DNA from: a virus
Reading direction: 5' to 3' (one strand)
Length of the DNA: 23,797 nt
IMG/VR virus record: IMGVR_UViG_3300032342_000436
Location: 1-23,797 of that record
Below, piece by piece: positions 1,588 to 23,797 of this stretch; the first letter of the stretch is position 1; the number at the start of each line of letters is the position of its first letter. A model generated the notes under the pieces. It ran no database searches. It worked only from the letters and a program-made list of their open reading frames with translations, and had not been told where the DNA came from. Position numbers and translations under genes: made by a program.

Positions 1588-1886
1588 AATTTGTTAGCTA
1601 ACCTCCGTAAAGTTTCTGCATGACAGCGTTTTGGAAAACACCAACACGCGAGGTTCTGACCATGTAGAGGGACCAACCACTTCGGGTCCACTGTCAATCT
1701 CCATATCGCATAGGCTTCAAATAGATCACACACGCGGGCCCGCTCTTGTTCTGTCATTTGTGATATAATGACGAATGGATTGCCCCAATCCGTACCCCGA
1801 TCCACACGTATATAGGGAACACCAATTATCGGATGTCGCAAGTTAAGGATTGACAACTCTTCCGGCACTAAAAGACCAGTTTTCAT
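1584..1886 (-). CDS. DUF4326-family protein
   Basis: About 100 aa, carrying the DUF4326 signature: an N-terminal YIRVDRGTDWGNPF segment, a middle helix with ERARVCDLFEAYAIW, and a C-terminal block LHGQNLACWCFPKRCHAETL with clustered cysteine and histidine. The family is widespread in phages and bacteria but has no settled function. The Cys/His block may bind metal or act as a catalytic centre. The start is set at the ATG at 1886, which overlaps the nrdJ stop as ATGA; an in-frame GTG at 1910 would lie inside nrdJ. The coupling to nrdJ and thyX suggests a nucleotide-related role, but that is inference. Confidence 0.75.
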   Translation of the reverse strand: MKTGLLVPEELSILNLRHPIIGVPYIRVDRGTDWGNPFVIISQMTEQERARVCDLFEAYAIWRLTVDPKWLVPLHGQNLACWCFPKRCHAETLRRLANKL

Positions 1887-3667
1887 AATTGACAGACTCC
1901 CGAAGGACACTCCATCACGGCTTCTGTCCCTGTTGTGTGAGATTCTTTGAAACGCTTCTTAGCTTCTTTGAGAGGAATCGCGCACAACGGTGGTTCCGCA
2001 ACTTCCCCTGCTGCATTGACATATCCCCTTGTTTTCTCCCGATAGAATGTCGTGCCCTTGAGATGAGGGAGATATTCAAGCCACAGTTTCTCCATATCCT
2101 CAATGGAATAATCATGTGGCATATTGATTGTCTTTGACACAGCATTGTCCACATGCTTCTGTATGATCCTCTGGACTTCTAAGTGATCGCGCACAGTCAA
2201 ATCATGGGAACCCACAAAATGCTTCACGTCTTTTCCCTCAAGCATGAACTGTTCAAATAATGGATGAAAGACGAGTTCCACTTTCCGCTCATCCTTCTCC
2301 CAATAGCGACGTTCATATGCAGGAGCGAACATCGGCTCAATACCTGAACTACAATTGTTCGAGAGAATACTAACTGTTCCCGTTGGAGCTTGAGTGAGGA
2401 TTGCACAATTGCGAATCCCATGTTCAAGAATCAACGATTTTGTTTTCGCTGGCATACGCTTCATGAATCCCGATTCAACATGCTTTAACGGATCGCACAG
2501 AGGGAACGAACCCTTCTCAATTGCGAGTAGGACACTCGCTTCATAGGCAGCTTTGGAAATGAAACGATAGAGCTTATCAACAAACTTATTTCCTTCTTCT
2601 GATCCATAACTATATCCAAGCATCGCAAGCGTATCAGCAAGTGCAGTGGTTCCTAATCCAATGCGACGGAGACTGGCAGACTTGATCTTCATTTCATTCA
2701 GTGGGAAATGATTCACGCTGAGTGCATCGTCAAGGAATCGTACAGCAAGACGAATCGTATCTCCCAATGCAGGATAGTCAATCTCATCTCCCACAACAAA
2801 ACGAGACAGCACAAGATGTCCGAGACAACACGGTTCCATCGCTGCAAGGGCAAGCTCACCACATGGGTTTGTGGTAACGAGGTTTTCGATGTAGTAAATG
2901 TTGCTTTCATGCTCAACAAGCTCCCAATTAAGAAACCCGGGTTCCGCTGAATTGTACGCATTCTTGACAATTGTATCCCACAAGAGACGCGCCTTGATCT
3001 GTCTTTTGTATTTCCCCTTCCAATGCAACTCAATTTCTGTATCCTCTTTTACTGATTTGATGAACGCTTTAGTGTGCTTGCATTTTACAGAGACATTCGC
3101 ATGGGTGAGTTCACCCTTCACTAATTTCGCACTGAGAAATTCTTCAATGTCGGGGTGAGTAAGGTCGAGGCTGAACATAAGCGCAACACGCCGTTGTCCG
3201 CCGTTACGGATGGGCTGTGCACAACCATCGATGAGACGCATAAGTTCAACTGCACCAGGTGCGACTCCTCGTTGCCCTGCGATGGATGCACCTCTTGGAC
3301 GTACATCTGAGAAATCATCTCCACACCCACCTCCTGTCATGCTAGTGACAATCATATCATATGCCGACTTGCCCCATCCTTCTTTACTATCTTTGTTGGG
3401 GTCCAACACAAAGCAATTGAGTAATTGTGGATTCGTGCGCCCTGAGTTATACCATATACGTCCACCCGGAACAAACAGATTGCGAACGAGGACTTCATAG
3501 AATCGATCTACATAGCACTTTTGTTTCTCAGGTGCTTCTGCTATCGCCATCTGATGAGCCACGCGACTACATGCTTCTCGCCACGTCTCTTCGGGAGTAA
3601 ACGCATAACGATCTTTGAAAATCTTTAATGAGAACCCTGTGGGTGAATACTCTTGTATTACGTTCAT
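1883..3667 (-). CDS. nrdJ: Class II (B12-dependent) ribonucleotide reductase
   Basis: This 594-aa enzyme reduces ribonucleotides to deoxyribonucleotides using an adenosylcobalamin-generated thiyl radical. The family marks are present: a redox cysteine in LLNCFVL (C85), the active-site loop NPCGE (N267, C269, E271) with the radical-bearing cysteine, a second redox cysteine in MEPCCLG (C280/C281), QAPTGTVSI in the phosphate-binding region, and a C-terminal CPSGVC pair (C587, C592) that reloads the active site. No small subunit (nrdB) is nearby, which fits the class II type. Its ribosome binding site AAAGGA lies in the last codons of thyX, two bases upstream of the gene. Together with ThyX it supplies phage DNA precursors. 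It requires cobalamin from the host or environment. Confidence 0.92.
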   Translation of the reverse strand: MNVIQEYSPTGFSLKIFKDRYAFTPEETWREACSRVAHQMAIAEAPEKQKCYVDRFYEVLVRNLFVPGGRIWYNSGRTNPQLLNCFVLDPNKDSKEGWGKSAYDMIVTSMTGGGCGDDFSDVRPRGASIAGQRGVAPGAVELMRLIDGCAQPIRNGGQRRVALMFSLDLTHPDIEEFLSAKLVKGELTHANVSVKCKHTKAFIKSVKEDTEIELHWKGKYKRQIKARLLWDTIVKNAYNSAEPGFLNWELVEHESNIYYIENLVTTNPCGELALAAMEPCCLGHLVLSRFVVGDEIDYPALGDTIRLAVRFLDDALSVNHFPLNEMKIKSASLRRIGLGTTALADTLAMLGYSYGSEEGNKFVDKLYRFISKAAYEASVLLAIEKGSFPLCDPLKHVESGFMKRMPAKTKSLILEHGIRNCAILTQAPTGTVSILSNNCSSGIEPMFAPAYERRYWEKDERKVELVFHPLFEQFMLEGKDVKHFVGSHDLTVRDHLEVQRIIQKHVDNAVSKTINMPHDYSIEDMEKLWLEYLPHLKGTTFYREKTRGYVNAAGEVAEPPLCAIPLKEAKKRFKESHTTGTEAVMECPSGVCQL

Positions 3668-3669
3668 TG

Positions 3670-4449
3670 TTATCGTCCTTTTGCAATTGCGTCTACCTGT
3701 GAACCCATCGGCTCAATATCCTCATAGAATATGGGGATTCGTTCTTGGAAAATCTTGAGAAGAGGAATAGTAACTTCACGGCATTGTGGGTGTGTTTCGC
3801 GGGTCGTTCTCATCAATAAAAAATGTCTCCAATTGCGGAGGTTACAGGTCATGACGATCTTGGAGCCAAGGGCATTAGGAAGAATGGATCGTGCTTCTTG
3901 TGGCTTCCACCCCTTCCCAATCAACTTTTTATATGTATCTTCCACCACAGCAATACAATGTAACCAATCCTGATCGAACTGTTCGACAAACATATTTCTC
4001 GATTCTTCATTTACGGCTTTTACATCTGTGGCAATATGACTGATAGAGTCTACAGACCAATTATCCAAATCAATGACGGACTTCTCATCCCATCCCTCTG
4101 CATTCCACGTCTTAGGATACAAGAAACTCGGTGGCATTTTCTTTTCATAGTTCACAAAGCGGGTGGACTCCTGAGTGTAGGAGGCAAGACGGTGCCGTAC
4201 AATCTCATGAGTAATGCCACGGTCCACATAGAATTCCACAGAAATGCTGGCATGTTCTGTGACACTCCAATCTCCATGGCTCAAAACCACCGCACGGAGA
4301 AAACGATCCCATGATGTTTCTGTCTGTGCTTCTTCTGAACGGTGAGAAATACGAGCGATACGCTCAATCTTACGGAGCATTCTGATTCCTTGCTCACTAG
4401 AACCCAAATCATAATCATCCACCAGTACATACGGCTTCACAATGTTCAT
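3670..4449 (-). CDS. thyX: Flavin-dependent thymidylate synthase
   Basis: The 259-aa product methylates dUMP to dTMP with FAD, NADPH and methylene-tetrahydrofolate. The diagnostic ThyX motif RHR-x7-SxR is present at residues 85-97, and the C-terminal NLRNWRHFLLMR block that binds nucleotide and flavin is intact. The start is set at 4449, preceded by AAAGGAG; the longer frame starting at 4491 has no such site and adds residues unlike the family. It is followed after two bases by nrdJ, giving a two-gene dTTP/dNTP supply unit. ThyX in place of ThyA is common in phages of aquatic bacteria. Confidence 0.93.
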   Translation of the reverse strand: MNIVKPYVLVDDYDLGSSEQGIRMLRKIERIARISHRSEEAQTETSWDRFLRAVVLSHGDWSVTEHASISVEFYVDRGITHEIVRHRLASYTQESTRFVNYEKKMPPSFLYPKTWNAEGWDEKSVIDLDNWSVDSISHIATDVKAVNEESRNMFVEQFDQDWLHCIAVVEDTYKKLIGKGWKPQEARSILPNALGSKIVMTCNLRNWRHFLLMRTTRETHPQCREVTIPLLKIFQERIPIFYEDIEPMGSQVDAIAKGR

Positions 4450-4476
4450 ACTAAAGTTCTCCTTTGTTGATAAAAC

Positions 4477-4490
4477 TGTGGGGAACCACA
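4477..4490 (-). other. Short hairpin upstream of thyX
   Basis: In the 97-base gap between primase and thyX, TGTGG (minus strand) pairs with CCACA around a TTCC loop and is followed by GTTTTA. The stem is only five base pairs, so it could be a weak terminator, a processing site or chance. A poor sigma70-like arrangement (TTGTCT, then TTTTAT about 18 bases later) overlaps it. I see nothing else in this gap. Confidence 0.25.
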
Positions 4491-4546
4491 AATAGACAAT
4501 TTCTTATGTTCTGCGAAACGTACTTCAGGCTTCTTGTGGGTGAAAC

Positions 4547-12432: not shown

Positions 12433-15400
12433 CTACTTGTTGTGACCCTTATCTTCTATTACTTCAAGGTCATGTGCTTTCACATTCTTTTCCATCCACA
12501 TATCTGGGTTATAATTTGCTAACCATTTATGGGCGTGTTCAGGTGAATGAAAGCCGCTGGCATAAACAGCGTTATGATTCTTTTTTTGTACGATTTTGTG
12601 TGTAACTTCCTTCAAATATACCTTCTCACCAAGAACTCGTCGAACAGTCTTATAGACATCTGAGTGCTCATGCAGCACAGTGTCATAGTGGGGAACATCA
12701 GAGTGTGAATCATATGTCAAATGCTTCTTGATCGCACGATGCACTTGGAGTGCGGTCTTGCCCCCCAGATCATTGAGATGGACTTTTCCATCCCCATGGT
12801 GTGCAATTCCACTTCCACCTAACCAGTTTCCATGTAGTGTCTTTCCGTCCGTGGACAGCTTCTTGCTGGATGCTGACTGCTTGTTCAAGAATGCTTTAAT
12901 GACTTTATGGGAACCTGCACCGATAGTCATTTCGTCGAGTTGTTCAGCTTCTTCATGGAACTTATATGTAGGAGCGTATGCAGTTCCGCGTCGTCCTTCC
13001 GGTCCAACAGCATCAAGTCTATTGTGCTTTCTTGTAATGAATCCACCCACTTTATCTGCTTTCGCATATTCTTGTTTCATCTTAGCTTGTGCCTGATTAT
13101 GATGAGGACCGCTGACTGCTTGGCGCTGATATTCGTCGCCTCGTTCGATTCTCGCATCATGCACCTTATGAGCAAGACCCAATGAGATTTCGTCGAGTTG
13201 TTCCACTTCCTCTGATACACCCTTCTTATGTGCGGAGAACTTCTTCATCGCTTCTCCGTGTGTTCGTGCAGTGTCCCAAAAGTGCTTTCCTTGTTTGAAT
13301 CCCTTAATATGGTAAACTCCATGCTCCTTATTCATATGGAAATGCGTGTTATCATCAACATGATGTGACAACTTTGCACCCACCGCAAAGTCATACGCAT
13401 CATAGGGCTTGCGTTCTTCTTCTAGCTTAGTAAAGCTACCCACTTTATCTGACAGCTTATCGGCTGCTTTCTTAATTCCTTGAGTGCGCTTCTTAGAGAC
13501 CATAGCAGTCTTTACATCACCCGTTCCAACATGCCGCACATTGTAATCAATGTCATTAGCAGATTTCTTGATATAGTTTGACAGTGTGTGTCTGCTGAGT
13601 TCGTCGATCTGTTCAACTTCCTCTAGCTTTTCCACGGCGCGACGAATACCCTTTGTGCGCTTGAAACTCTTTAGTTGGTACTTCTCTGCTTCTTTATCAT
13701 TTCCAACCATCCTCATATTACCAGACTTCACCATCAGAAGGTCCTTATTTCTTGCGGCACCCCGTACATAACTTCCGAGTGTCGCTTTACTGAGTTCGTC
13801 GAGTTGTTCAACTGCTTCAGTAACTTTCTTCGTGCCACACACTGGGCACGTCATACTTCCTTTTGTGAAAACACGCACTCTTCCACACTTCCCACAATGC
13901 TGTAAGTGCCCCTGTTCAAGTTCCTTTTCTCCCTTTGGATCATCCGTCAAGTGTGCAGGAAGTCGGCTTGTCATAGCAGTTTCATAGTTGTACTTAGACT
14001 CTGCGAGTTTCTTCGCTCTCGCTGTTGCAGTTGCATACATCATATTGTCGTATTTGTAGTTTTCTTCTAATTTTCTAAGATATTTATTGATAGTATAGCG
14101 GCCTTTTTGCGCTCCACCCAACTCTAGTTGCTTTTTGGTTTCTTTCGCGTCAGCCGCGGTCGCATGGATTGAATGAGCAACCCTCTTCTGTTCATCATAC
14201 ACGTGGTGCACGACGATCTTTCTAGATTCGGAGAGTTCCTTCGCTCTCGCTGTTGCAGTCGCATACATCACATTCTTGGCACGTTCACCATAATGTGACT
14301 TGAAACTCTTGATAGACTTCTTCATACCATGGACGATATCTTCCTTCTTCTCTGACTCAGCGGGAGTCAAAGTCTTTTCCTGCAACAGTGATTTTTCATT
14401 CATCAATACACTCTTCACTGCTTCACTCATGAGTGTCGGTTTCTTTGTCACCGTAATCTCTGGGTGGTAGTCGTGAGCTTGCACCAACATTTTCTTATAT
14501 TCAGTTGGGTCCAAATGAGTTGCGGTCCGAAGCGTATCAATCTTCTTACCATGCAAATGCACATCATACACATGTGGATAATTCTGCATTTTGGATTCTT
14601 CCAAGGATTTCTCCTTCTTCTCAACGCGAACTTTCGACCACAGGTGCATGGGGATTCCTTCGGGGTGCGAGTGGCTGCCCACGCTGACAGTTTTCTGCAT
14701 GGCTTCGGACCTGTCCTTAGCTTCTACTTCGTGTTTGTTGCCTAAGTGATCCGTAACATTCCAAACATGCTCTGAAACAAACTGTGCGTTTTCGTGTTGC
14801 TTAATCCTTTGATCGCTCCATCCCATTTTCTTGAGATGTCTGCGGGATTCCTCTTTGTCCATCCCACCCATCACGCCCACCATAGCATCGGGCATTCTAA
14901 GGGTTTTCTTGGCAATCTGTGTCTGGTGATAATCGAATACGTTTTTTCCTTCTCCTAGCATCGCGTCCTCCACTTTCTCTGGTAAAAATCCTTGTCTATT
15001 CTCAGGGCTGTGAGGAAATAATCTCTTCAACCATTTGCTCTTATTGGTGTCAGGGTGATGCTCCTTCTTCCCGTCCTTCTCCGCTCTCTTTACTGGGGCA
15101 GTTTCCTTGCTCTCATCCTCTTTTTCCGTGATGTGGTGTTTCTTTGCAAATGCTAGTGTGGCCGCTTTACGTGAGTTGAAAAGTTCATCATAACTTGCTG
15201 TATGCTCCGGCTCTGTCACCTTCGTCACTGGCACTTCTTTAGCAGCAGTTCTTTTCACCCCCAAATGAAGCGTCATCTGACGGGTTTCCTTCAACTGTTC
15301 CTCTTGGTGTCTCTTATCTACTTCAGCTTTCGCCCGTTCATATCCCAAATGAGGACCCGGTCCTTTTCCTATCGTCGCACATTTTACTGCCGCAGTTCCT

Positions 15401-15939
15401 TGATTGCGATATACTTCAAAGTGTCCTTTAGGGTGTGAACGAACAGTATAATTACCTTTTTCATAAAGTATATTCTCTGTGATAGATTCTTCCTTCAACT
15501 GATCCTCTTTAGACGCATCCGGCACAGTCAACTTCACAGACACGGCTTTGCTACCATGTCTCTTCTCGATCTTCTTATGAGCCTCAGACTCGGATTTTGC
15601 AGTCACATATTGACCCTGGTGACTACCCCCCATGTGATAGAAGTAGGATTCTTCGTCTAATTTTCCAGGATGAATGTCCTTAATATGCTGATTTACGCGA
15701 GCGATTTCTTCCGGCGACAACGTGGGATTATTGAACTGAACATGGTGAGGAGACACGACATGGTTATAGCGAATAGGAGTGACTTTCGTACCATGCAGGA
15801 CATCGTGATTACCATGAAAGGAGTGCGGAACGACATACGTTTTTCCGTTAATCGTACCCGTATAATGTGCGTCCGTTTTCGTGGCGCGTTGAAACTTCGG
15901 GACAAATTCTTCGTTACGCATTTGCTTAAAAGACTTCAT
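12433..15939 (-). CDS. Giant modular protein with repeated prohead-protease-like sites
   Basis: The 1168-aa protein starts MKSFKQMRNEEF, a capsid-targeting-like peptide, and is a string of small basic modules. Recognisable parts are NYTVRSHPKGHFEVYRN (163-179), IAKKTLRMPDAMVGVMGGM (342-360), VYDVHLHGKKIDTL (457-470), two copies of MYATATARAK (558-567, 634-643), a zinc ribbon (C682, C685, C698, C701), and two related modules of the LSKATLGSYV type (716-772 and 781-828). Four linkers of the form [VA]EQ[LI]DE lie at 709-715, 774-780, 911-917 and 997-1003. T4 prohead protease cuts after [LI]-x-E, so I infer a polyprotein cut into internal head peptides. AAGGAG precedes the ATG. No catalytic domain is seen. 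The reading frame is intact throughout. Confidence 0.75.
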   Translation of the reverse strand: MKSFKQMRNEEFVPKFQRATKTDAHYTGTINGKTYVVPHSFHGNHDVLHGTKVTPIRYNHVVSPHHVQFNNPTLSPEEIARVNQHIKDIHPGKLDEESYFYHMGGSHQGQYVTAKSESEAHKKIEKRHGSKAVSVKLTVPDASKEDQLKEESITENILYEKGNYTVRSHPKGHFEVYRNQGTAAVKCATIGKGPGPHLGYERAKAEVDKRHQEEQLKETRQMTLHLGVKRTAAKEVPVTKVTEPEHTASYDELFNSRKAATLAFAKKHHITEKEDESKETAPVKRAEKDGKKEHHPDTNKSKWLKRLFPHSPENRQGFLPEKVEDAMLGEGKNVFDYHQTQIAKKTLRMPDAMVGVMGGMDKEESRRHLKKMGWSDQRIKQHENAQFVSEHVWNVTDHLGNKHEVEAKDRSEAMQKTVSVGSHSHPEGIPMHLWSKVRVEKKEKSLEESKMQNYPHVYDVHLHGKKIDTLRTATHLDPTEYKKMLVQAHDYHPEITVTKKPTLMSEAVKSVLMNEKSLLQEKTLTPAESEKKEDIVHGMKKSIKSFKSHYGERAKNVMYATATARAKELSESRKIVVHHVYDEQKRVAHSIHATAADAKETKKQLELGGAQKGRYTINKYLRKLEENYKYDNMMYATATARAKKLAESKYNYETAMTSRLPAHLTDDPKGEKELEQGHLQHCGKCGRVRVFTKGSMTCPVCGTKKVTEAVEQLDELSKATLGSYVRGAARNKDLLMVKSGNMRMVGNDKEAEKYQLKSFKRTKGIRRAVEKLEEVEQIDELSRHTLSNYIKKSANDIDYNVRHVGTGDVKTAMVSKKRTQGIKKAADKLSDKVGSFTKLEEERKPYDAYDFAVGAKLSHHVDDNTHFHMNKEHGVYHIKGFKQGKHFWDTARTHGEAMKKFSAHKKGVSEEVEQLDEISLGLAHKVHDARIERGDEYQRQAVSGPHHNQAQAKMKQEYAKADKVGGFITRKHNRLDAVGPEGRRGTAYAPTYKFHEEAEQLDEMTIGAGSHKVIKAFLNKQSASSKKLSTDGKTLHGNWLGGSGIAHHGDGKVHLNDLGGKTALQVHRAIKKHLTYDSHSDVPHYDTVLHEHSDVYKTVRRVLGEKVYLKEVTHKIVQKKNHNAVYASGFHSPEHAHKWLANYNPDMWMEKNVKAHDLEVIEDKGHNK
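12925..13815 (-). repeat. Four VEQLDE-type linker repeats
   Basis: A near-identical stretch encoding [VA]EQ[LI]DE[LIM][ST] occurs four times in frame, at about 13792-13815, 13594-13617, 13183-13206 and 12925-12948. On the plus strand all share most of TTCGTCGAGTTGTTCA. Spacing between them is 65, 137 and 86 residues, so the modules between are not equal. Conservation is at the linker, not in most of the modules, which points to selection on the linker peptide itself. Confidence 0.75.
13456..13806 (-). repeat. Tandem pair of related 50-60 residue modules
   Basis: Residues 712-773 and 778-828 of the giant protein are diverged copies. Each begins with LDELS or IDELS, continues TLGSYVRGAA or TLSNYIKKSA, and ends KRTKGIRRAVEKL or KRTQGIKKAADKL. 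This is an internal duplication with the putative cleavage linker at the front of each copy. Copies of the same module type are, as I recall, frequent in T4-like phages. Confidence 0.65.
13996..14274 (-). repeat. Duplicated MYATATARAK segment
   Basis: Two segments of 17 codons, at 14224-14274 and 13996-14046, encode NVMYATATARAKELSES and NMMYATATARAKKLAES. They are nearly identical in DNA too (shared CTCGCTGTTGCAG core on the plus strand). They lie 76 residues apart, indicating a recent local duplication or gene conversion within the giant gene. Confidence 0.75.
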
Positions 15940-17757: not shown

Positions 17758-17768
17758 TATTTATGTTA
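17758..17768 (-). promoter_or_regulatory. Late-promoter-like CATAAATA, copy 2
   Basis: The same TAACATAAATA as at 10857-10867 overlaps the stop codon of the methyltransferase gene upstream, in the 53-base gap before the ParB-kinase gene. The leader to the ATG at 17712 would be about 40 bases and contains AGAGG as ribosome binding site. This placement suits a T4-type late promoter that drives the virion genes at 17712 and leftward. Confidence 0.4.
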
Positions 17769-18512
17769 CAGCGGCTTTTGGCAACGGACCCAAATCCACT
17801 GGGGGTGTAAGTCATGACACGGTTCAGTGAAGATGTGATCGAATCCCACAAACCCATTATCTTCGATGTCCTTCTTGAGGTCTGCGACGTTCTCCACACG
17901 GACATCTGGGTTGTCGCTCGCATCAAATCCATGGAAGTAATCAACTGAATGAGTGTGTCCGGGTCCAAATCCCATCTGAAAACAGAAGAACCCCCCCGGC
18001 TTGAGGATTCTGAGAAATTCCTTATATAAGTCCAGTCGCCATTCTCGGCACGAAATGTGCTGCATACAAATGACGGAGAAGACAACATCATAAGTGTCAT
18101 CGGCGACCATAGGCAAGGAATGTCCGTCTGTCAGATACAAATTGGGCACAGGAATGCCTGCGCTCCCCAAGTTCAGGGGAACTTTTGAGAGAATCCCAGG
18201 TGAACGATCTGCCCCGTCGATACGGGCAAAGTAATTCTTGAACTTAATCATGTTGCGACCTGGTCCGCAACCATACTCAAGAGCGAGCTTATTCTGCATG
18301 ATGGGGGTGCCGCGGAATAAGAGTTCTTCGTTCTTGTCTGCGTTGTGAGCGTCGTACCATCCCACAACAGGCTCCCGATTCTCCAATGACCATCTTGCTG
18401 CCTCACGTTCCAGAAGGTTCTGGAAATGATCCCCCGTTTCGGGTACTACAGGAGTCGCACTCACACTCTGCGTTTCTGTGTTGTATACGAATAACGACAT
18501 CTTCTCGTCCAT
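17766..18512 (-). CDS. Class I SAM-dependent methyltransferase
   Basis: The 248-aa enzyme has the SAM-binding loop LEYGCGPGRN (78-87), an acidic second motif IDGADRS (98-104), DVVFSVICMQH for motif IV, and LKPGGFFCFQMG in the late strand. This is a Methyltransf_11-type fold acting on a small molecule or sugar. Its ribosome binding site (GGAGGGAC) lies in the last codons of the FkbM-type gene upstream. It is the last gene of the right-hand island in transcription order. The substrate is not visible from the sequence; a glycan is likely by context. Confidence 0.8.
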   Translation of the reverse strand: MDEKMSLFVYNTETQSVSATPVVPETGDHFQNLLEREAARWSLENREPVVGWYDAHNADKNEELLFRGTPIMQNKLALEYGCGPGRNMIKFKNYFARIDGADRSPGILSKVPLNLGSAGIPVPNLYLTDGHSLPMVADDTYDVVFSVICMQHISCREWRLDLYKEFLRILKPGGFFCFQMGFGPGHTHSVDYFHGFDASDNPDVRVENVADLKKDIEDNGFVGFDHIFTEPCHDLHPQWIWVRCQKPL

Positions 18513-18515
18513 AAT

Positions 18516-19127
18516 CTAGTCCCTCCAATACGCAATATCGATTTCGGAATTGTCCTCATGCACATAATCTACACGCTGCTTGAATCCCGCACCTGCTAGG
18601 AACGTGGACATTGACGCGAACGTGTTGTCCACATCAGTTATATAGACAGGCACTTGATACGTGACTTCGCAACGTCCAGACTTCACATTCTGAATCCAAT
18701 CTCCCAAGCTCTTGAGTGCGAGCAAGTCATTACCCTGGCAGTCCGTCCACAGAAAATCGATATGATCGATCCCGTACAGTTCCAACAACTTTGCGAAGTT
18801 GATCGTATGGACTACGATCTTTCCAGTCATGCCACGCTGATACTGCCAATGCTTTTTGAGAGCGGTCTGAAGCAAGTCGGGGTGCAGAGGATAGAGGCTA
18901 TTGATCCCTCGTTCGTGATCCATGATGTGAAACTCTTTGATCGCATCAGTCGTATCGACGGCAAACGGCCAGAGCGTCACGCGAGGATCATCTTTGAATC
19001 GCTGCACCAACTTCGCAAAGAGGAACGGGTCAGGTTCCGCTGCATATAGTTTATCGGGATTGTGCGCGCCCAAGAGTTTTGCTGTATCATCTCCATTGTT
19101 CGCTCCGATTTCTACCACAATTTTCAT
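18516..19127 (-). CDS. FkbM-family methyltransferase
   Basis: The 203-aa product begins directly at the SAM motif VVEIGANNGDDT (4-15), with AAEPDPFLF for the ribose-binding acidic residue, PFAVDTTD, and the family mark FLWTDCQGNDLLALKSL around 124-140. FkbM-type enzymes O-methylate sugars or polyketides. The start at 19127 has AGGAG. It overlaps none of its neighbours but shares the ribosome binding context with the next gene. Two different FkbM-type genes lie in the same island, which suggests that two positions are methylated or two substrates used. Confidence 0.8.
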   Translation of the reverse strand: MKIVVEIGANNGDDTAKLLGAHNPDKLYAAEPDPFLFAKLVQRFKDDPRVTLWPFAVDTTDAIKEFHIMDHERGINSLYPLHPDLLQTALKKHWQYQRGMTGKIVVHTINFAKLLELYGIDHIDFLWTDCQGNDLLALKSLGDWIQNVKSGRCEVTYQVPVYITDVDNTFASMSTFLAGAGFKQRVDYVHEDNSEIDIAYWRD

Positions 19128-19135
19128 AATATCTC

Positions 19136-19229
19136 CTAATCGTTCCGCGTTTGGTTGATTGCTTCAGCACACAGTCGAGTTAATTCCTCGGTGTCGTGCA
19201 GCAAGAAGAATCTCAGCGTTGAGGTCCAT
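19136..19229 (-). other. Gap of about 100 bases with two overlapping short frames
   Basis: Between the two FkbM genes, one frame opens with an ATG at 19229 that shares bases with the stop (TGATG) and runs 21 codons, beginning MDLNAEILLAARHR and stopping at 19164. A second frame without ATG covers 19136-19228 and reads LHDTEELTRLCAEAINQTRN near its end, which looks more like protein. A one-base shift would join them into a small protein of about 30 residues. I cannot tell a real gene, a broken one or programmed frameshift apart. Confidence 0.3.
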
Positions 19230-19771
19230 CACATTCCCGGTTTCCAAAAAGTGATATCAGGAGTATAGCTCTTGTTCACTGTATAATCCCATGTGAAAGT
19301 GAATCCATGATCCAACAACCATCCGGCTACGTTCGATTTCAAATCCTGGTAAATAGCAATTCGTCCTCGTTCGACATCCTTGAAACGCTCCGCTAAACTC
19401 TCAAGACAATTCTCTTCACAGAATGGAGCATCAATGCGGAGATAATCAATCTTCTCAATCCCATACAGGTTCATGAAGGTATCGAGCCGCATCGTCCACG
19501 TCAATCGAAAGCTTTCGGGTTTATCCGTTCGGAAGAAGGGATTCACAAGAGTACTTTGTCCATTGGGATATTTGAACAATGGTTCTTGATTATCCCCCAG
19601 GTCGACCGCAAACGGAAGCAGCGTGAGTCGAGGATATGATCGTGACTTTATCTGCAAGTCTCGAAACTTCTCAACATCAGGTTCAAACGCATAGACATTC
19701 GCCTCTGCATTCGCAAGAAAATGAAACGTCTCAATCCCTTCATGCGCCCCGACTTCAACAATCGTACTCAT
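19229..19771 (-). CDS. FkbM-like methyltransferase, divergent
   Basis: The 180-aa product starts with the SAM loop IVEVGAHEGIET (4-15), has VYAFEPDVEKF, LLPFAVDLGD, and the late block YGIEKIDYLRIDAPFCEENCLESL, so it is an FkbM-type fold. The D-C-Q-G-N or D-x-E-G stretch of typical members is replaced by DAPFCEEN, so activity or substrate may differ. The start overlaps the stop of the upstream methyltransferase as ATGA, and GAGGG is upstream. Probably methylates a sugar or an acid in the same pathway as its neighbours. Confidence 0.7.
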   Translation of the reverse strand: MSTIVEVGAHEGIETFHFLANAEANVYAFEPDVEKFRDLQIKSRSYPRLTLLPFAVDLGDNQEPLFKYPNGQSTLVNPFFRTDKPESFRLTWTMRLDTFMNLYGIEKIDYLRIDAPFCEENCLESLAERFKDVERGRIAIYQDLKSNVAGWLLDHGFTFTWDYTVNKSYTPDITFWKPGM

Positions 19772-20421
19772 GTGTCCCTCTTAATGATCCAATACCTCCG
19801 CTGTCCCTGTCGGAAATATCCACTGTTCTTTTCCTCCCAATCATAGTAATGGATGCCTCCATTAGGGGGAATATTCAATTCAGGTACATCATAGCGATTC
19901 CATGTTGCGCCCAACGATTCAACACAATTCTGGAAGTTGTTTGCCGACATCACTGTACCGATACGATTCACTGCATGATCGTATTGATCCATCTCATGTT
20001 TCTTCTGCTCATATGTAGGATCGATCAAATCAATGATTTCCGTTTCAAGACATAGTATGGGGGCTAACTTCAAACAACACGCTAAATCCTGCTTCCAGTT
20101 ATCGAGGTGATAGAGCAATCCCCAATGAACGATTAAATCAAAGGGCCCCGGCACGGTCCACTCCTTATCCTGATCCACTAGATAGGCTTCAAACCCATCC
20201 TCTTTCATGAAGTCCACGAAGAATTGTCGTCCATCTGTAAAGACAGCTTCAGCCCCTAATTTTGCAAGCAATCGTCCGTTGTTCCCATGCCCACAACCCA
20301 CGTCAAGGATTCGTTTCCCTGGAAACCAATCTGCTCCCAATACTTGCACAAGTACATTGACCCGTGCAGCGTTCCATTGATCGCAACTCTCATGTTGAAA
20401 ATAATCATGCTTCGTCGTCAT
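19768..20421 (-). CDS. Class I SAM-dependent methyltransferase
   Basis: About 217 aa, with RILDVGCGHGNNGRLLAKLG as SAM motif I, AVFTDGRQFF for the ribose contact, and DLIVHWGLLYHLDN for motif IV, a Methyltransf_23-like pattern. I choose the ATG at 20421, which has GGAG eight bases upstream, rather than the ATG at 20433. It begins directly after the glycosyltransferase stop at 20423 and its ribosome binding site lies in that gene. The C-terminal YYDWEEKNSGYFRQGQRRYW is unusual and could bind the acceptor. A glycan or glycolipid substrate is likely by context. Confidence 0.8.
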   Translation of the reverse strand: MTTKHDYFQHESCDQWNAARVNVLVQVLGADWFPGKRILDVGCGHGNNGRLLAKLGAEAVFTDGRQFFVDFMKEDGFEAYLVDQDKEWTVPGPFDLIVHWGLLYHLDNWKQDLACCLKLAPILCLETEIIDLIDPTYEQKKHEMDQYDHAVNRIGTVMSANNFQNCVESLGATWNRYDVPELNIPPNGGIHYYDWEEKNSGYFRQGQRRYWIIKRDT

Positions 20422-20422
20422 C

Positions 20423-21229
20423 TTAAACTCCATCGTATGCCGTGATATTGTATTTGGTTGTCGACCAAGGGTACCAATCTATCTCTGGAAAACTGGGGGT
20501 GTATGTCGCAACTTCTGGCCCATTGTTATTCAGCGCATGCCCCCACTTCTTCTGATAGTACGCTTGAGCACGAAGCAACGTCTTGTTTCTGTCGCGTCCA
20601 TCTTCTGGTTGAATCCGTTCCATGTGCCAGTGGACGTTTTCATAGTTCGGGTCACACGCTTTGCTGTTCAGTTCTGTGCGAATCGCCTTCTGAACCCCGA
20701 TGGAGTTATGCATAAATCCCCAGTCATGCGTATCTTCAATACTCATTCTCATCTTGTCGTATCCCGAATGAAAGACTCGCTTCATGAAATCGGCATCCCC
20801 GCAATAGGGAGAACAGAATCGCTCATCCCAATACCCCGACTTTCTTAACACATCCAACGTGATATAGTAGAACTGATCTCCCGCTGGACCCCAAATAAAA
20901 TCGTAGTGCTTGCGCCATTCTCTCAACCATGTCGCAAACTCAGGATGAATGTATGTATCATCTTGAATACAGGCTATGTTGTTAGAATGTTGCAAGGCTT
21001 TGAGAAACACACTATTCCAACTTCGCGCATTCCATAAGTTCGATTCGTCTGTGTTCAAACTATTGACAACAACTCGATCCACATAACTTTCTGACTCAAG
21101 GGAAAGAGATACGAGAGAATGGTTCGACATGACATTGGAACGAATGCCCTGTCGTCCTAATTCTGTCACTAGACGATTGAGTGCTACAGGACGATTGAAC
21201 GTCAGAATCCAGGTTGATAGATTATCCAT
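20423..21229 (-). CDS. Glycosyltransferase-like protein (GT-A type)
   Basis: The 268-aa product starts MDNLSTWILTFNRPVALNRL, typical of the first strand of a GT-A fold. It has the acidic CIQDDTYIHPEF (QDD in place of DxD, for metal and nucleotide-sugar) and a second acidic stretch PYCGDADFMKRV. Motif spacing resembles family 2-like or tailed-phage glycosyltransferases. The start is set at 21229; the longer frame up to 21466 lies inside the RuBisCO-like gene and has no sense. The ATG overlaps that gene's stop by eight bases (AATGGATAA). It would transfer the sugar made by the upstream genes to an acceptor. Confidence 0.75.
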   Translation of the reverse strand: MDNLSTWILTFNRPVALNRLVTELGRQGIRSNVMSNHSLVSLSLESESYVDRVVVNSLNTDESNLWNARSWNSVFLKALQHSNNIACIQDDTYIHPEFATWLREWRKHYDFIWGPAGDQFYYITLDVLRKSGYWDERFCSPYCGDADFMKRVFHSGYDKMRMSIEDTHDWGFMHNSIGVQKAIRTELNSKACDPNYENVHWHMERIQPEDGRDRNKTLLRAQAYYQKKWGHALNNNGPEVATYTPSFPEIDWYPWSTTKYNITAYDGV

Positions 21230-22424
21230 TGATGAGCCCCCATTCCTTGATTGCTTCGTGATACTCTTTCCCGTATGTATGATCGATGGCCTGACGCATC
21301 GCGTGACACCCCGCAAGCGTTCCCCCTGGATGCCCGTGCAGTGCGCCTCCAACATTTGCCATATAATCATTACCAACATTCTTTGTGACATGATTGACAA
21401 GTCCTGGGTGCATTCCACACGACAACGCGGGAAGCACATTATGGGAGTGCAGCAAGTCCATGACACTTTTCAATTCCTTGGTATCTTCTTGCATGTATCC
21501 ACCAAACATCCCCGCATGGATAGAGTCAACTCCCGCAAGGGCAGCAAGTTGACACATCGCATACCATGACATACCAAACGCATTTTTGCTATGGGTGATA
21601 ACTTTATCCCCGCTCTTTTGATAGTGCAGGAACAATGGAAGGTTCAGTCGGCGAATGGAATGATACGCACCCAATCCACTCCAGAAATTGATATGCACCC
21701 CATTCGCACCTTCTTCAGCAAGGAACAACGCTCGCTTCTCAATCACATGTGGGTCTCCGTTAATCGAGAAGCAATAGACAACTTTACGACCACACTTATG
21801 TAAATAGCTTGTGATGATCGGCACTCGTTCTTCCAAGCTACAGAATGCGGGATTGGAAAGGATTTCATCTTCCTTGATGAAGTCCACGCCACCATCCACC
21901 AACTCTTTCACCATGTCTAGCAATTGATTCGGGCGTAACCCAGTCTTGGGCTTGATGATTCCTCCGAAGATGGGCTTATCGTATTGCCCGGTGAGCGCAC
22001 GGATACCACGGATACCGTACTTAGGTTGCTGGAAATGTTTACGCACCGATTCAGGAATTTGTAATGACTCAATGCGACAATGAGTGATATGGGCAATGTC
22101 GGCTTGCCCACCAAGAATTTGGCACATGAGATGGGCAATACCATCCCCCTCCCAATCGGTGTTGATGATCGGGAAAGCAATTTTTATCGTTGGTCGTTCT
22201 TCTCGGTATTCTGAATCGAAGTCGGTATGTAATACCAGACACGCATGGTTCTCAAACAGTTCATCCGTTTCCCAGTGATTGCGGATATTGGGGTTGCCCA
22301 TGCTCTGCCCGATAGCCAAATCAAATGCTGACTTCTTGACGCTGTGAGTGCTATCAAGTTGATAGGAAACAACTAGATACTTCTCAGGGTCAATAGAACT
22401 CTCATCACGAAAAATATTAAACAT
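21222..22424 (-). CDS. RuBisCO-like protein (form IV)
   Basis: The 400-aa protein has the large-subunit TIM barrel with most active-site elements: GGIIKPKTGL (K158, K160), the carbamylation/metal motif FIKEDE (K184, D186, E187, equal to K201, D203, E204), H267 (H294), SIHAG (H303, equal to H327), SCGMHPG (S335, equal to S379) and NVGGALHGHPGG for the phosphate. The loop-6 lysine K334 is replaced by Y310, and N123 by H98, by eye alignment. Such proteins do not fix CO2; relatives enolise, isomerise or decarboxylate sugar-like phosphates (methionine salvage, isoapionate pathways). The start at 22424 has AAAGGAAA. It precedes the glycosyltransferase with coupled translation and follows the cupin. 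I know of no characterised phage member. Confidence 0.9.
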   Translation of the reverse strand: MFNIFRDESSIDPEKYLVVSYQLDSTHSVKKSAFDLAIGQSMGNPNIRNHWETDELFENHACLVLHTDFDSEYREERPTIKIAFPIINTDWEGDGIAHLMCQILGGQADIAHITHCRIESLQIPESVRKHFQQPKYGIRGIRALTGQYDKPIFGGIIKPKTGLRPNQLLDMVKELVDGGVDFIKEDEILSNPAFCSLEERVPIITSYLHKCGRKVVYCFSINGDPHVIEKRALFLAEEGANGVHINFWSGLGAYHSIRRLNLPLFLHYQKSGDKVITHSKNAFGMSWYAMCQLAALAGVDSIHAGMFGGYMQEDTKELKSVMDLLHSHNVLPALSCGMHPGLVNHVTKNVGNDYMANVGGALHGHPGGTLAGCHAMRQAIDHTYGKEYHEAIKEWGLING

Positions 22425-22467
22425 TGCAAATTTCCTTTCCGCTTTTCTTATAGATCACATAACTCAT
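22417..22467 (-). CDS. Possible 16-residue peptide between cupin and RuBisCO-like gene
   Basis: An ATG overlapping the cupin stop as ATGA opens a 16-codon frame encoding MSYVIYKKSGKEICNV and ends at a TAA that lies within the RuBisCO-like start region. Its placement mimics the overlaps of real neighbours. It may only be a coupling ORF that keeps ribosomes on the message. Its size makes chance a fair alternative. Confidence 0.2.
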   Translation of the reverse strand: MSYVIYKKSGKEICNV

Positions 22468-22784
22468 ACCAAATACTTATCTCCTATCACAGAAGGCACT
22501 TTGACCACAACGATAGTGCTCTTTTCATGCACAACGCAGTCACTTATTTCGTCTACGCCAAAAATGAAAATATCCCCAGGCACTAAGAGTCGTCCGTTAC
22601 ACGTCATGGACCCACTCACAAACACATTCATCTCTTCAACCAAGTGATGATAATGTAATGGTATATAGGCACCCTTCTCATGGATCATCACAGAAATTTC
22701 AAACTCAGTCGTGCGAATCAGTGAAGGCTCAAAGTCACCGATGATCCATCCATTCTTAAATTCTTCCAACCGACGCATTCTCAT
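22464..22784 (-). CDS. Small cupin, sugar-binding or isomerase-like
   Basis: The 106-aa product has the first cupin motif as GAYIPLHYHHLVEEMNVFVSG: G, then H-x-H four residues before Glu, then Gly, which gives metal ligands H44, H46 and E51 in the usual count. The second motif is VPGDIFIFG without the usual second His, so the metal site may be incomplete or altered. I choose the ATG at 22784, which overlaps the stop of the nucleotidyltransferase gene as ATGA and has GAGGGAG; the longer frame starting at 22838 would overlap that gene. Cupins in sugar clusters often epimerise, isomerise or dehydrate nucleotide sugars. Confidence 0.75.
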   Translation of the reverse strand: MRMRRLEEFKNGWIIGDFEPSLIRTTEFEISVMIHEKGAYIPLHYHHLVEEMNVFVSGSMTCNGRLLVPGDIFIFGVDEISDCVVHEKSTIVVVKVPSVIGDKYLV

Positions 22785-23797
22785 GTATGATGCTCCCTCA
22801 AATAATGATTCAAGTCCTCTGGTGTTCCAAGGGACCACATTTTCTGAATGTTCTTCACACGAATCTTCTTCCCATCAGCAATCGCTTCATTGTAGACAGG
22901 ACACACATAGAATTCATTATTGACACGAATGTTCTTCGTCATCATTTGTTCTGCGTACTTCACAAAGTCTGATCCATGCGTCCAGTAATAGAGTCCCACT
23001 GTCGCATCATCGGAAATGACTTTCTTCTCCGCAACTTCACTGACAAATCCTTGCTCATCCACTTTCGCAAACGAATATTGAGGATGGACGGACTTAAACG
23101 TGATAATGCCTCCATCGATCCCTGCTGCGGAGAACGCATATAAGCATTCATTGGAGTTCCATTCTACCGATTGATCGGAGTTCGCAATCAACATGGGCTG
23201 CTCGTTGTCGATGAGTGACTTCGCAAGGAGTACCGTACACGCGGCTCCCTCTGTCACTCCATCTGCTTGCACGATATCGCACCCAGGAGCGACCATGTTC
23301 AGCATGTACTTGAGTTGATACTTCTCATAGTGCGCTTTCTGCACGATGAATATATAGTGCGCATCAATATTGAGACTTTCCTTAACAACTTGGATCATTG
23401 GTCGTCCGTTGACTTCAATCAGGGGCTTCGGGAATGTATATCCCGCTGTAGCAAAACGCGACCCATGACCCGCCATTGGTACAATAACGTTCAACTTCTT
23501 GTCACGCCAGGGAATCGTCTTATGAACAATCCCCCTGAAGTAGTCAGCAATAGTCTCACCGAGGGCATGGTTGACTTCAGAGGGGTCACAAACGGGAATC
23601 AAGTGTGCGCCCGAGGCTATCGCTCCCTCACGTCCTATATGCGAATCCTCCACAACGACTGTGTTATTCACGTCCGTCTTGAGGGCAATCATGCACTTCC
23701 AGTACATCTCAGGAAACGGTTTAGGGTGTCGTACATCTTCATTGGACACAAAATAGTCTACTTGTTCCATCACTCCTAGACGACTGAGGGCCATCAC
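22781..23797 (-). CDS. HAD phosphatase-nucleotidyltransferase fusion, 5' end missing
   Basis: 338 residues are visible; the frame is open at the right edge. Residues 1-95 are the end of a beta-phosphoglucomutase-like HAD domain (HPKPFPEMY with the motif III lysine, VVVEDSHIG with E50/D51); motif I lies outside the window. Residues 102-338 are a sugar-phosphate nucleotidyltransferase: VPMAGHGSRF (106-115), FPKPLIEVNGRPMI (K124), the metal site NSDQSVEW (D208), and the C-terminal EKKVI/GLYYW segment. It should activate a sugar or related phosphate with an NTP. The fusion couples phosphate handling to activation. It is the first visible gene of the island, with the cupin start overlapping its stop. 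Confidence 0.85.
   Translation of the reverse strand: MMALSRLGVMEQVDYFVSNEDVRHPKPFPEMYWKCMIALKTDVNNTVVVEDSHIGREGAIASGAHLIPVCDPSEVNHALGETIADYFRGIVHKTIPWRDKKLNVIVPMAGHGSRFATAGYTFPKPLIEVNGRPMIQVVKESLNIDAHYIFIVQKAHYEKYQLKYMLNMVAPGCDIVQADGVTEGAACTVLLAKSLIDNEQPMLIANSDQSVEWNSNECLYAFSAAGIDGGIITFKSVHPQYSFAKVDEQGFVSEVAEKKVISDDATVGLYYWTHGSDFVKYAEQMMTKNIRVNNEFYVCPVYNEAIADGKKIRVKNIQKMWSLGTPEDLNHYLREHHT

Follow-up and report, generated by a model that had tools for sequence, protein, structure and literature searches.

Relatives of RuBisCO with tested functions act in CO2 fixation, methionine salvage and sugar-acid catabolism. The RuBisCO-like protein (RLP) family described here resembles the known form IV RLPs in keeping the RuBisCO fold and the Mg2+/carbamate residues and in having lost the residues of CO2 fixation, and ketose-phosphate enolate chemistry is expected of it as of them. 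The MTA-isoprenoid shunt is a pathway that uses both an RLP and a cupin (PMC6302742). The GOS survey described RuBisCO homologues from the sea that belong to none of the known forms (PMC1821046). Two earlier papers describe viral 'rbcL' genes and list them under carbon fixation: one on landfill viruses, in which the genes cluster with 'RbcL-like' proteins and are also found in IMG/VR (PMC12607003), and one on viruses of the Great Salt Lake (PMC8506154). A preliminary description of our locus knew of no phages with such genes in sugar-modification islands, which has to be qualified: viral 'rbcL' was already on record, though it had been read only as carbon fixation. We found no paper joining an RLP with a nucleotidyltransferase, a cupin, nucleotide sugars or viral auxiliary genes.

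The window (the whole stretch of DNA analysed) corresponds to one IMG/VR record, 23,797 bases long and even in GC. Its RLP gene is read on the minus strand from 22424 to 21222 (400 codons, giving a 400-aa protein; Pfam RuBisCO_large, 1.6e-42). The coordinates given earlier for this reading frame stand and the strand is minus; the plus-strand reading of 21222-22424 was rejected, its frame being full of stops. As had been proposed, the gene lies in a phage genome and not a bacterial one: the window encodes a phage-type primase (phrog_47, 2.8e-60) together with ThyX, a class II ribonucleotide reductase and a structural-protein-like gene. Relatives of the RLP are encoded by 301 viral contigs, all of metagenomic origin, and the best 80 of the 301 were analysed as loci. 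Among 28 longer viral contigs with an RLP, the T4-type capsid protein Gp23 (E <1e-94) was found on six and a terminase above the cut-off on six. The RLP is carried mostly by tailed phages. The 50,697 INPHARED phage records gave no RLP match, and the window RLP has no match in PHROG.

Some other features of the window are recorded here. The ribonucleotide reductase, a B12-dependent enzyme, adjoins ThyX (1883-3667 and 3670-4491) and has at most 37% identity to the best phage matches listed. A small protein at 115-678 matches phrog_447 'NAD synthetase' and also homing-endonuclease families, and the PHROG label is doubtful. The 1168-aa protein at 12433-15939 contains repeated 'VEQLDELS'-like stretches and has no PHROG match. 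Two contigs from other samples (L002 and L003) encode an RLP 100% identical to that of the window; the glycosyltransferase genes upstream in these contigs diverge at the start, a hint that the island has undergone mosaic exchange.

An AlphaFold2 model of the window RLP, built from a 32-row alignment, reached pLDDT 90.2 and pTM 0.89. Its best fold match is the form III RuBisCO 2cwx (Z 42.8, 381 residues aligned, rmsd 2.2 A); other matches include MtnW (Z 42.6) and the RLP 3nwr (Z 40.4), which is also the best PDB sequence match (2e-46). On the IV-Photo side, fold-alignment identity is 24% to 1ykw and 23% to 2qyg. No RuBisCO-fold match was seen in the viral structure library BFVD. According to this model the protein has the RuBisCO large-subunit fold over its whole chain, placing it in the superfamily. 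With this fold and with the CO2-fixation residues replaced, it is a form IV RLP in the broad sense, which bears out the class first assigned to it.

The active site was compared with forms I and III, MtnW and OiaX, and then across 81 viral and 23 cellular members of the family. Five RuBisCO positions are invariant in all 104 members, namely K175, K177, K201, D203 and E204 (K158, K160, K184, D186 and E187 in the window). Replaced and equally invariant are E60 (G39), T65 (N44), N123 (G106), H294 (Q269, 104/104), K334 (Y310) and G380 (C336), where the counts for Y310 and C336 leave out one truncated cellular row; Y310 at the loop-6 lysine position is thus found in 81/81 viral and 22/22 readable cellular members. 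All four of the catalytic residues E60, N123, H294 and K334 are therefore replaced. In the P1 phosphate loop of the window RLP, S335, G337 and G360 are kept, and G404 is Ala361. The R295 position (K270 in the window) is K in 64 and S in 17 of the viral members, and the H327 position (H303 in the window) is H in 57 and Q in 24 of the same 81. The pairs observed at positions 270/303 of this distal site in viruses are K/H, K/Q and S/Q, so the substrate may differ between RLP subgroups. All 17 viral RLPs with S270 also carry Q303 and A273, replacing K/D/H at 270/273/303; since these residues change together, they point to a viral subgroup with an altered distal (phosphate) pocket.

The preliminary description was right about the metal motif (K184-E-D186-E187, joined by the 'KPK' lysines K158 and K160) and about the lost loop-6 lysine, and largely right about the phosphate loop, with the exception of Ala361. 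It had placed a His at the N123 position, where the residue is Gly106, and had counted both catalytic histidines as present, of which H294 is Gln269 and only the H327 equivalent is a histidine here. The changes E60>Gly39, T65>Asn44, R295>Lys270 and G380>Cys336 were absent from it. Judged by its residues, the RLP may be taken as excluded from CO2 fixation in practice. Between close viral RLP pairs dN/dS is 0.03-0.11, indicating purifying selection, although the ratios are rough because some dS values are near saturation; with relatives on 301 viral contigs, this puts the family far beyond chance.

NCBIfam models for RuBisCO and RLPs match the window protein, all far under their curated cut-offs. 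The RuBisCO models gave 120-190 bits against cut-offs of 438-497, including 190 against 497 for form III and 179 against 438 for a further catalytic-RuBisCO model, so that by score the protein is not a catalytic RuBisCO. Nor is it by score an OiaX (171 bits, cut-off 700) or an MtnW (124 bits, cut-off 514; second MtnW/DeepYkr model, 163 bits, cut-off 409). The tree references comprised form I, form III, presumed IV-Photo, OiaX and sister RLPs, MtnW and DeepYkr-type rows, with labels resting on NCBIfam scores, record annotation or, for IV-Photo, sampling and size. In the second tree, from which the long-branch rows L195, L147 and L196 were left out, the RLP family forms one clade (34 rows, support 100/100), as it does in an earlier tree with 40 family rows (SH-aLRT 100); three rows (L100, L095 and L317) are still long-branched in the second tree and their exact placements are unsure. 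This clade lies apart from forms I/II, III and IV-Photo and from the MtnW/DeepYkr and OiaX-type proteins: the window RLP is in a clade separate both from MtnW/DeepYkr, in agreement with the earlier statement that it is not of the methionine-salvage group, and from OiaX and its sister RLPs, and the presumed IV-Photo rows (putative Chlorobia) branch away from it. A family model separates members (at least 280 bits) from other fetched superfamily proteins (at most 213 bits; 37-168 in a second set).

The distinct viral clade that had been foreseen is real as a clade, but it is not purely viral. Cellular contigs with members come from SAR11, an alphaproteobacterium, Azospirillum, Legionella, DPANN archaea, Elusimicrobia, Verrucomicrobia, Bacteroidota and Patescibacteria. 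Legionella, Azospirillum, Elusimicrobia, Verrucomicrobia, DPANN and one SAR11 group fall outside the viral rows in the tree, and the remaining cellular members are interspersed among them. Some cellular members may be viral contigs in bins. The RLP on a Crocinitomicaceae MAG contig (L082) is identical to that of a viral contig (L016), so this contig may itself be viral and is poor evidence for a bacterial carrier. Only 2 of 197 SAR11 genomes have the RLP, both of them the seed genomes, which marks it as an accessory gene and not a core SAR11 trait.

Compared with other form IV RLPs, the viral family thus differs in forming its own clade with E60G, N123G, H294Q, R295K, K334Y and G380C, with K177 kept, in being mostly viral, and in its operon with a nucleotidyltransferase. 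MtnW (2,3-diketo-5-methylthiopentyl-1-phosphate enolase) is similar in fold and metal site, and a single phosphate on the substrate is likely for both; it differs in clade, in its Lys at the N123 position (two MtnW-clade rows, L198 and L193), where the RLP family has Gly106 throughout, and in that the viral loci are without salvage genes. The isomerase RLP group has KDH where others have KDE, and the viral family has KEDE. As to OiaX (3-oxo-isoapionate-4-phosphate decarboxylase) and its sisters, the nearest PDB sequence is an RLP, 3nwr, and OiaX shares the Gly at N123, but it has H294, R295 and K334 and lacks K177, opposite to what the viral family shows; OiaX-type loci, moreover, are catabolic, with kinases, dehydrogenases and transporters. 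The IV-GOS/GOS homologues, compared here by their published description (PMC1821046), are likewise marine metagenome groups outside the known forms, with N123 and H327 not conserved. Our clade may be one of these groups; the survey linked them to no viruses and gave neither an operon nor a function for them.

In the window, the RLP adjoins a nucleotidyltransferase and a cupin within a glycosyltransferase/methyltransferase island, as the preliminary description had it, and all of these genes are on the minus strand. A HAD phosphatase-nucleotidyltransferase fusion (22781..23797; Pfam HAD_2 and NTP_transferase) is cut by the window end and is complete, at 457 aa, in L002/L003. Its stop overlaps the ATG of a small 106-aa cupin (22464..22784; phrog_24762, 6.4e-27) by 4 bases (ATGA); a homologue of this cupin (in L076) matches Pfam Cupin_7 at 4.6e-4. 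The RLP stop overlaps by 8 bases the ATG of a probable glycosyltransferase of 268 aa (20423..21229), which has a weak PHROG galactosyltransferase match (2.9e-4) and no Pfam match. Further along are a SAM-dependent methyltransferase (19768..20433; Methyltransf_23, 1.1e-10), two FkbM-type methyltransferases (19229..19771 and 18516..19127; Methyltransf_21, 4e-7 and 1.9e-10) and another SAM-dependent methyltransferase (17766..18512; Methyltransf_11, 3.4e-13).

With the viral RLPs collapsed at 90% identity into 40 distinct types, and with ORFs called mechanically and clustered by BLAST (the module counts rest on this simple clustering), one nucleotidyltransferase family has a member no more than three genes upstream of the RLP in 38 types, and within five genes in 39. 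A cupin of about 107 aa is within five genes in 33/40 types, missing in the other 7 and in many cellular loci, and a protein of about 155 aa is within five genes in 27/40, being absent from about a third. The nucleotidyltransferase of the window and of its closest relatives is fused to a HAD phosphatase. Of 23 cellular contigs, 20 have a member of this nucleotidyltransferase family next to the RLP or close by, and the pairing persists in SAR11, DPANN, Legionella and Azospirillum; the three others are short or end near the RLP. The SAR11 loci L088-L093 have the order GDPD-like protein (mostly adjacent), nucleotidyltransferase-like gene, RLP, nucleotidyltransferase. Three Legionella loci have LicD, RLP and nucleotidyltransferase (LicD Pfam 1e-42 in the one scanned). 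LicD proteins move phospho-groups from CDP-activated donors onto glycans, so their presence fits an NDP-activated product. None of the ten RLPs of other clades that we inspected (Bacteroidota) has neighbours of the nucleotidyltransferase, cupin or GDPD type. Both the phylogeny and the search of viral contigs for homologues beside nucleotidyltransferases and cupins came out as predicted. A 706-aa ORF in Azospirillum (L099) that looked like an RLP-nucleotidyltransferase fusion was discarded, because it is in a different frame from the RLP and matches no Pfam family. A supposed cupin at L061:9001-9327 proved to be a nucleotidyltransferase and was set aside. In one viral group (L034:2121-4812, L036 and L040-L047) the RLP is followed by a fructosamine-kinase-like gene, a dehydroquinate-synthase-like sugar phosphate cyclase and a short-chain dehydrogenase, which suggests a further sugar or cyclitol branch.

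The neighbour of about 155 aa (family c3; L069:11235-11699 and 56 more viral copies, L085:8778-9206, L099:3939-4403) is a compact GDPD-like phosphodiesterase (mini-GDPD). It has no Pfam match, shares homology with a protein on a Nanoarchaeia contig that is a full Pfam GDPD, and keeps an invariant HRG / E-D / GHD motif (H6 R7 G8, E35, D37, H49). Its model (pLDDT 93.9) reaches Z up to 11.6 to GDPD structures, and nearly all top fold matches are GDPD or the related phospholipase D. Cultured cyanophages have the mini-GDPD as well (phrog_34507), and the family goes with glycan islands. Cyanophages Bellamy, SynMITS9220M01, S-CAM9, B23 and S-PRM1 have homologues of both the nucleotidyltransferase (44-64% identical to the SAR11-locus enzyme) and the mini-GDPD, and Bellamy and SynMITS9220M01 also have the cupin. 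Their islands place the HAD-nucleotidyltransferase among glycosyltransferases, epimerases, an aldolase and phosphoheptose isomerase, and, unlike our loci, are without an RLP. The sugar-nucleotide module would therefore stand alone, with the RLP adding a step or an alternative substrate route.

What, then, does the RLP do? That it is a carbon-fixing RuBisCO, an auxiliary metabolic 'rbcL' raising host CO2 fixation, is how its RuBisCO_large match, its closest fold (form III) and the listing of viral rbcL in PMC12607003 and PMC8506154 might be read, but we find this scarcely credible: E60, N123, H294 and K334 are replaced in all readable members, the RuBisCO model scores are far too low, and the clade lies outside forms I-III, with the gene in glycan islands. 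That phages recruited an enzyme of methionine or MTA salvage (MtnW enolase or methylthioribulose-1-phosphate isomerase) would suit the MtnW fold match and the adjacent cupin, the RLP-cupin pairing being that of the MTA-isoprenoid shunt (PMC6302742). Against it stand the low MtnW scores, the separate clade, the window's Gly and KEDE in place of the Lys of MtnW and the KDH of the isomerase group, and the presence of a nucleotidyltransferase and a GDPD, which have no role in salvage, making it highly improbable. Neither PF00485 (phosphoribulokinase) nor PF01008 (MtnA) was matched on the 28 viral contigs, which also speaks against fixation and salvage respectively, weakly so because these contigs are fragments.

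The loss of several RuBisCO catalytic residues would also be expected of a non-catalytic or scaffold RLP riding along in glycan islands; we consider this very unlikely, as the metal triad, K158, K160, Q269, Y310 and C336 are invariant across viruses, bacteria and archaea and dN/dS is low. An OiaX-like sugar-acid decarboxylase, turning a keto-acid phosphate into a ketose phosphate that is then activated, is an unlikely alternative. It agrees with the 3nwr sequence match and the shared Gly at N123, and decarboxylation yields the same enediolate; the OiaX score is far under its cut-off, the pattern of H294, R295, K334 and K177 is reversed, and the module is without the acid-sugar kinase, dehydrogenase and transporter of OiaX-type loci.

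Our best reading is a putative Mg2+/carbamate enzyme that converts a ketose phosphate (as isomerase, enolase or decarboxylase) for the nucleotidyltransferase, and we predict that the reaction is new for an RLP. An RLP unable to fix CO2, in an operon with a sugar-activating enzyme, probably makes a surface-sugar building block. The fold, the clade, the invariant metal site with K158/K160, the loss of CO2 residues, the selection and the operon linkage together make it reasonably probable that this own-clade member of the RuBisCO superfamily is a dedicated step in a short pathway to an activated glycan building block. In the mechanism we envisage, K184 would be carbamylated and would bind Mg2+ with D186 and E187, a ketose or keto-acid monophosphate would be held at the P1 phosphate site (S335, G337, G360), and K158 would act as acid/base, taking the proton next to the substrate carbonyl. 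The enediolate could be reprotonated elsewhere (isomerase, epimerase, enolase) or be formed by decarboxylation; guilt by association cannot separate isomerase, epimerase, enolase and decarboxylase, and we judge an isomerase or enolase about twice as likely as a decarboxylase within this best explanation. The product, directly or after cupin and HAD steps, would be the substrate of the nucleotidyltransferase, which would make an NDP-sugar or NDP-polyol, and a transferase (LicD in Legionella, the adjacent glycosyltransferase in the window) would place it on a surface or virion glycan. Because the cyanophage modules work without an RLP, the link could also be co-location in one glycan island and not one pathway. 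On a wider view, we are evenly divided on whether a RuBisCO-fold clade with a new reaction supplies the sugar- or polyol-phosphate substrate of the nucleotidyltransferase. It would then be the first relative of RuBisCO at work in the building of surface glycans, and T4-like and related phages would be its main vehicle, using it to remodel host or virion glycans.

With relatives on 301 viral contigs, this RLP branch is common, and the viral 'rbcL' genes earlier annotated as carbon fixation may in part belong to it. If our reading is true, an 'rbcL' gene in a virus should not be taken as a matter of course for a gene of carbon fixation. The operon offers a directly testable substrate chain, in which the RLP product is the substrate of the nucleotidyltransferase, and a branch wired to a nucleotidyltransferase would bring the RuBisCO fold into anabolic glycan chemistry.
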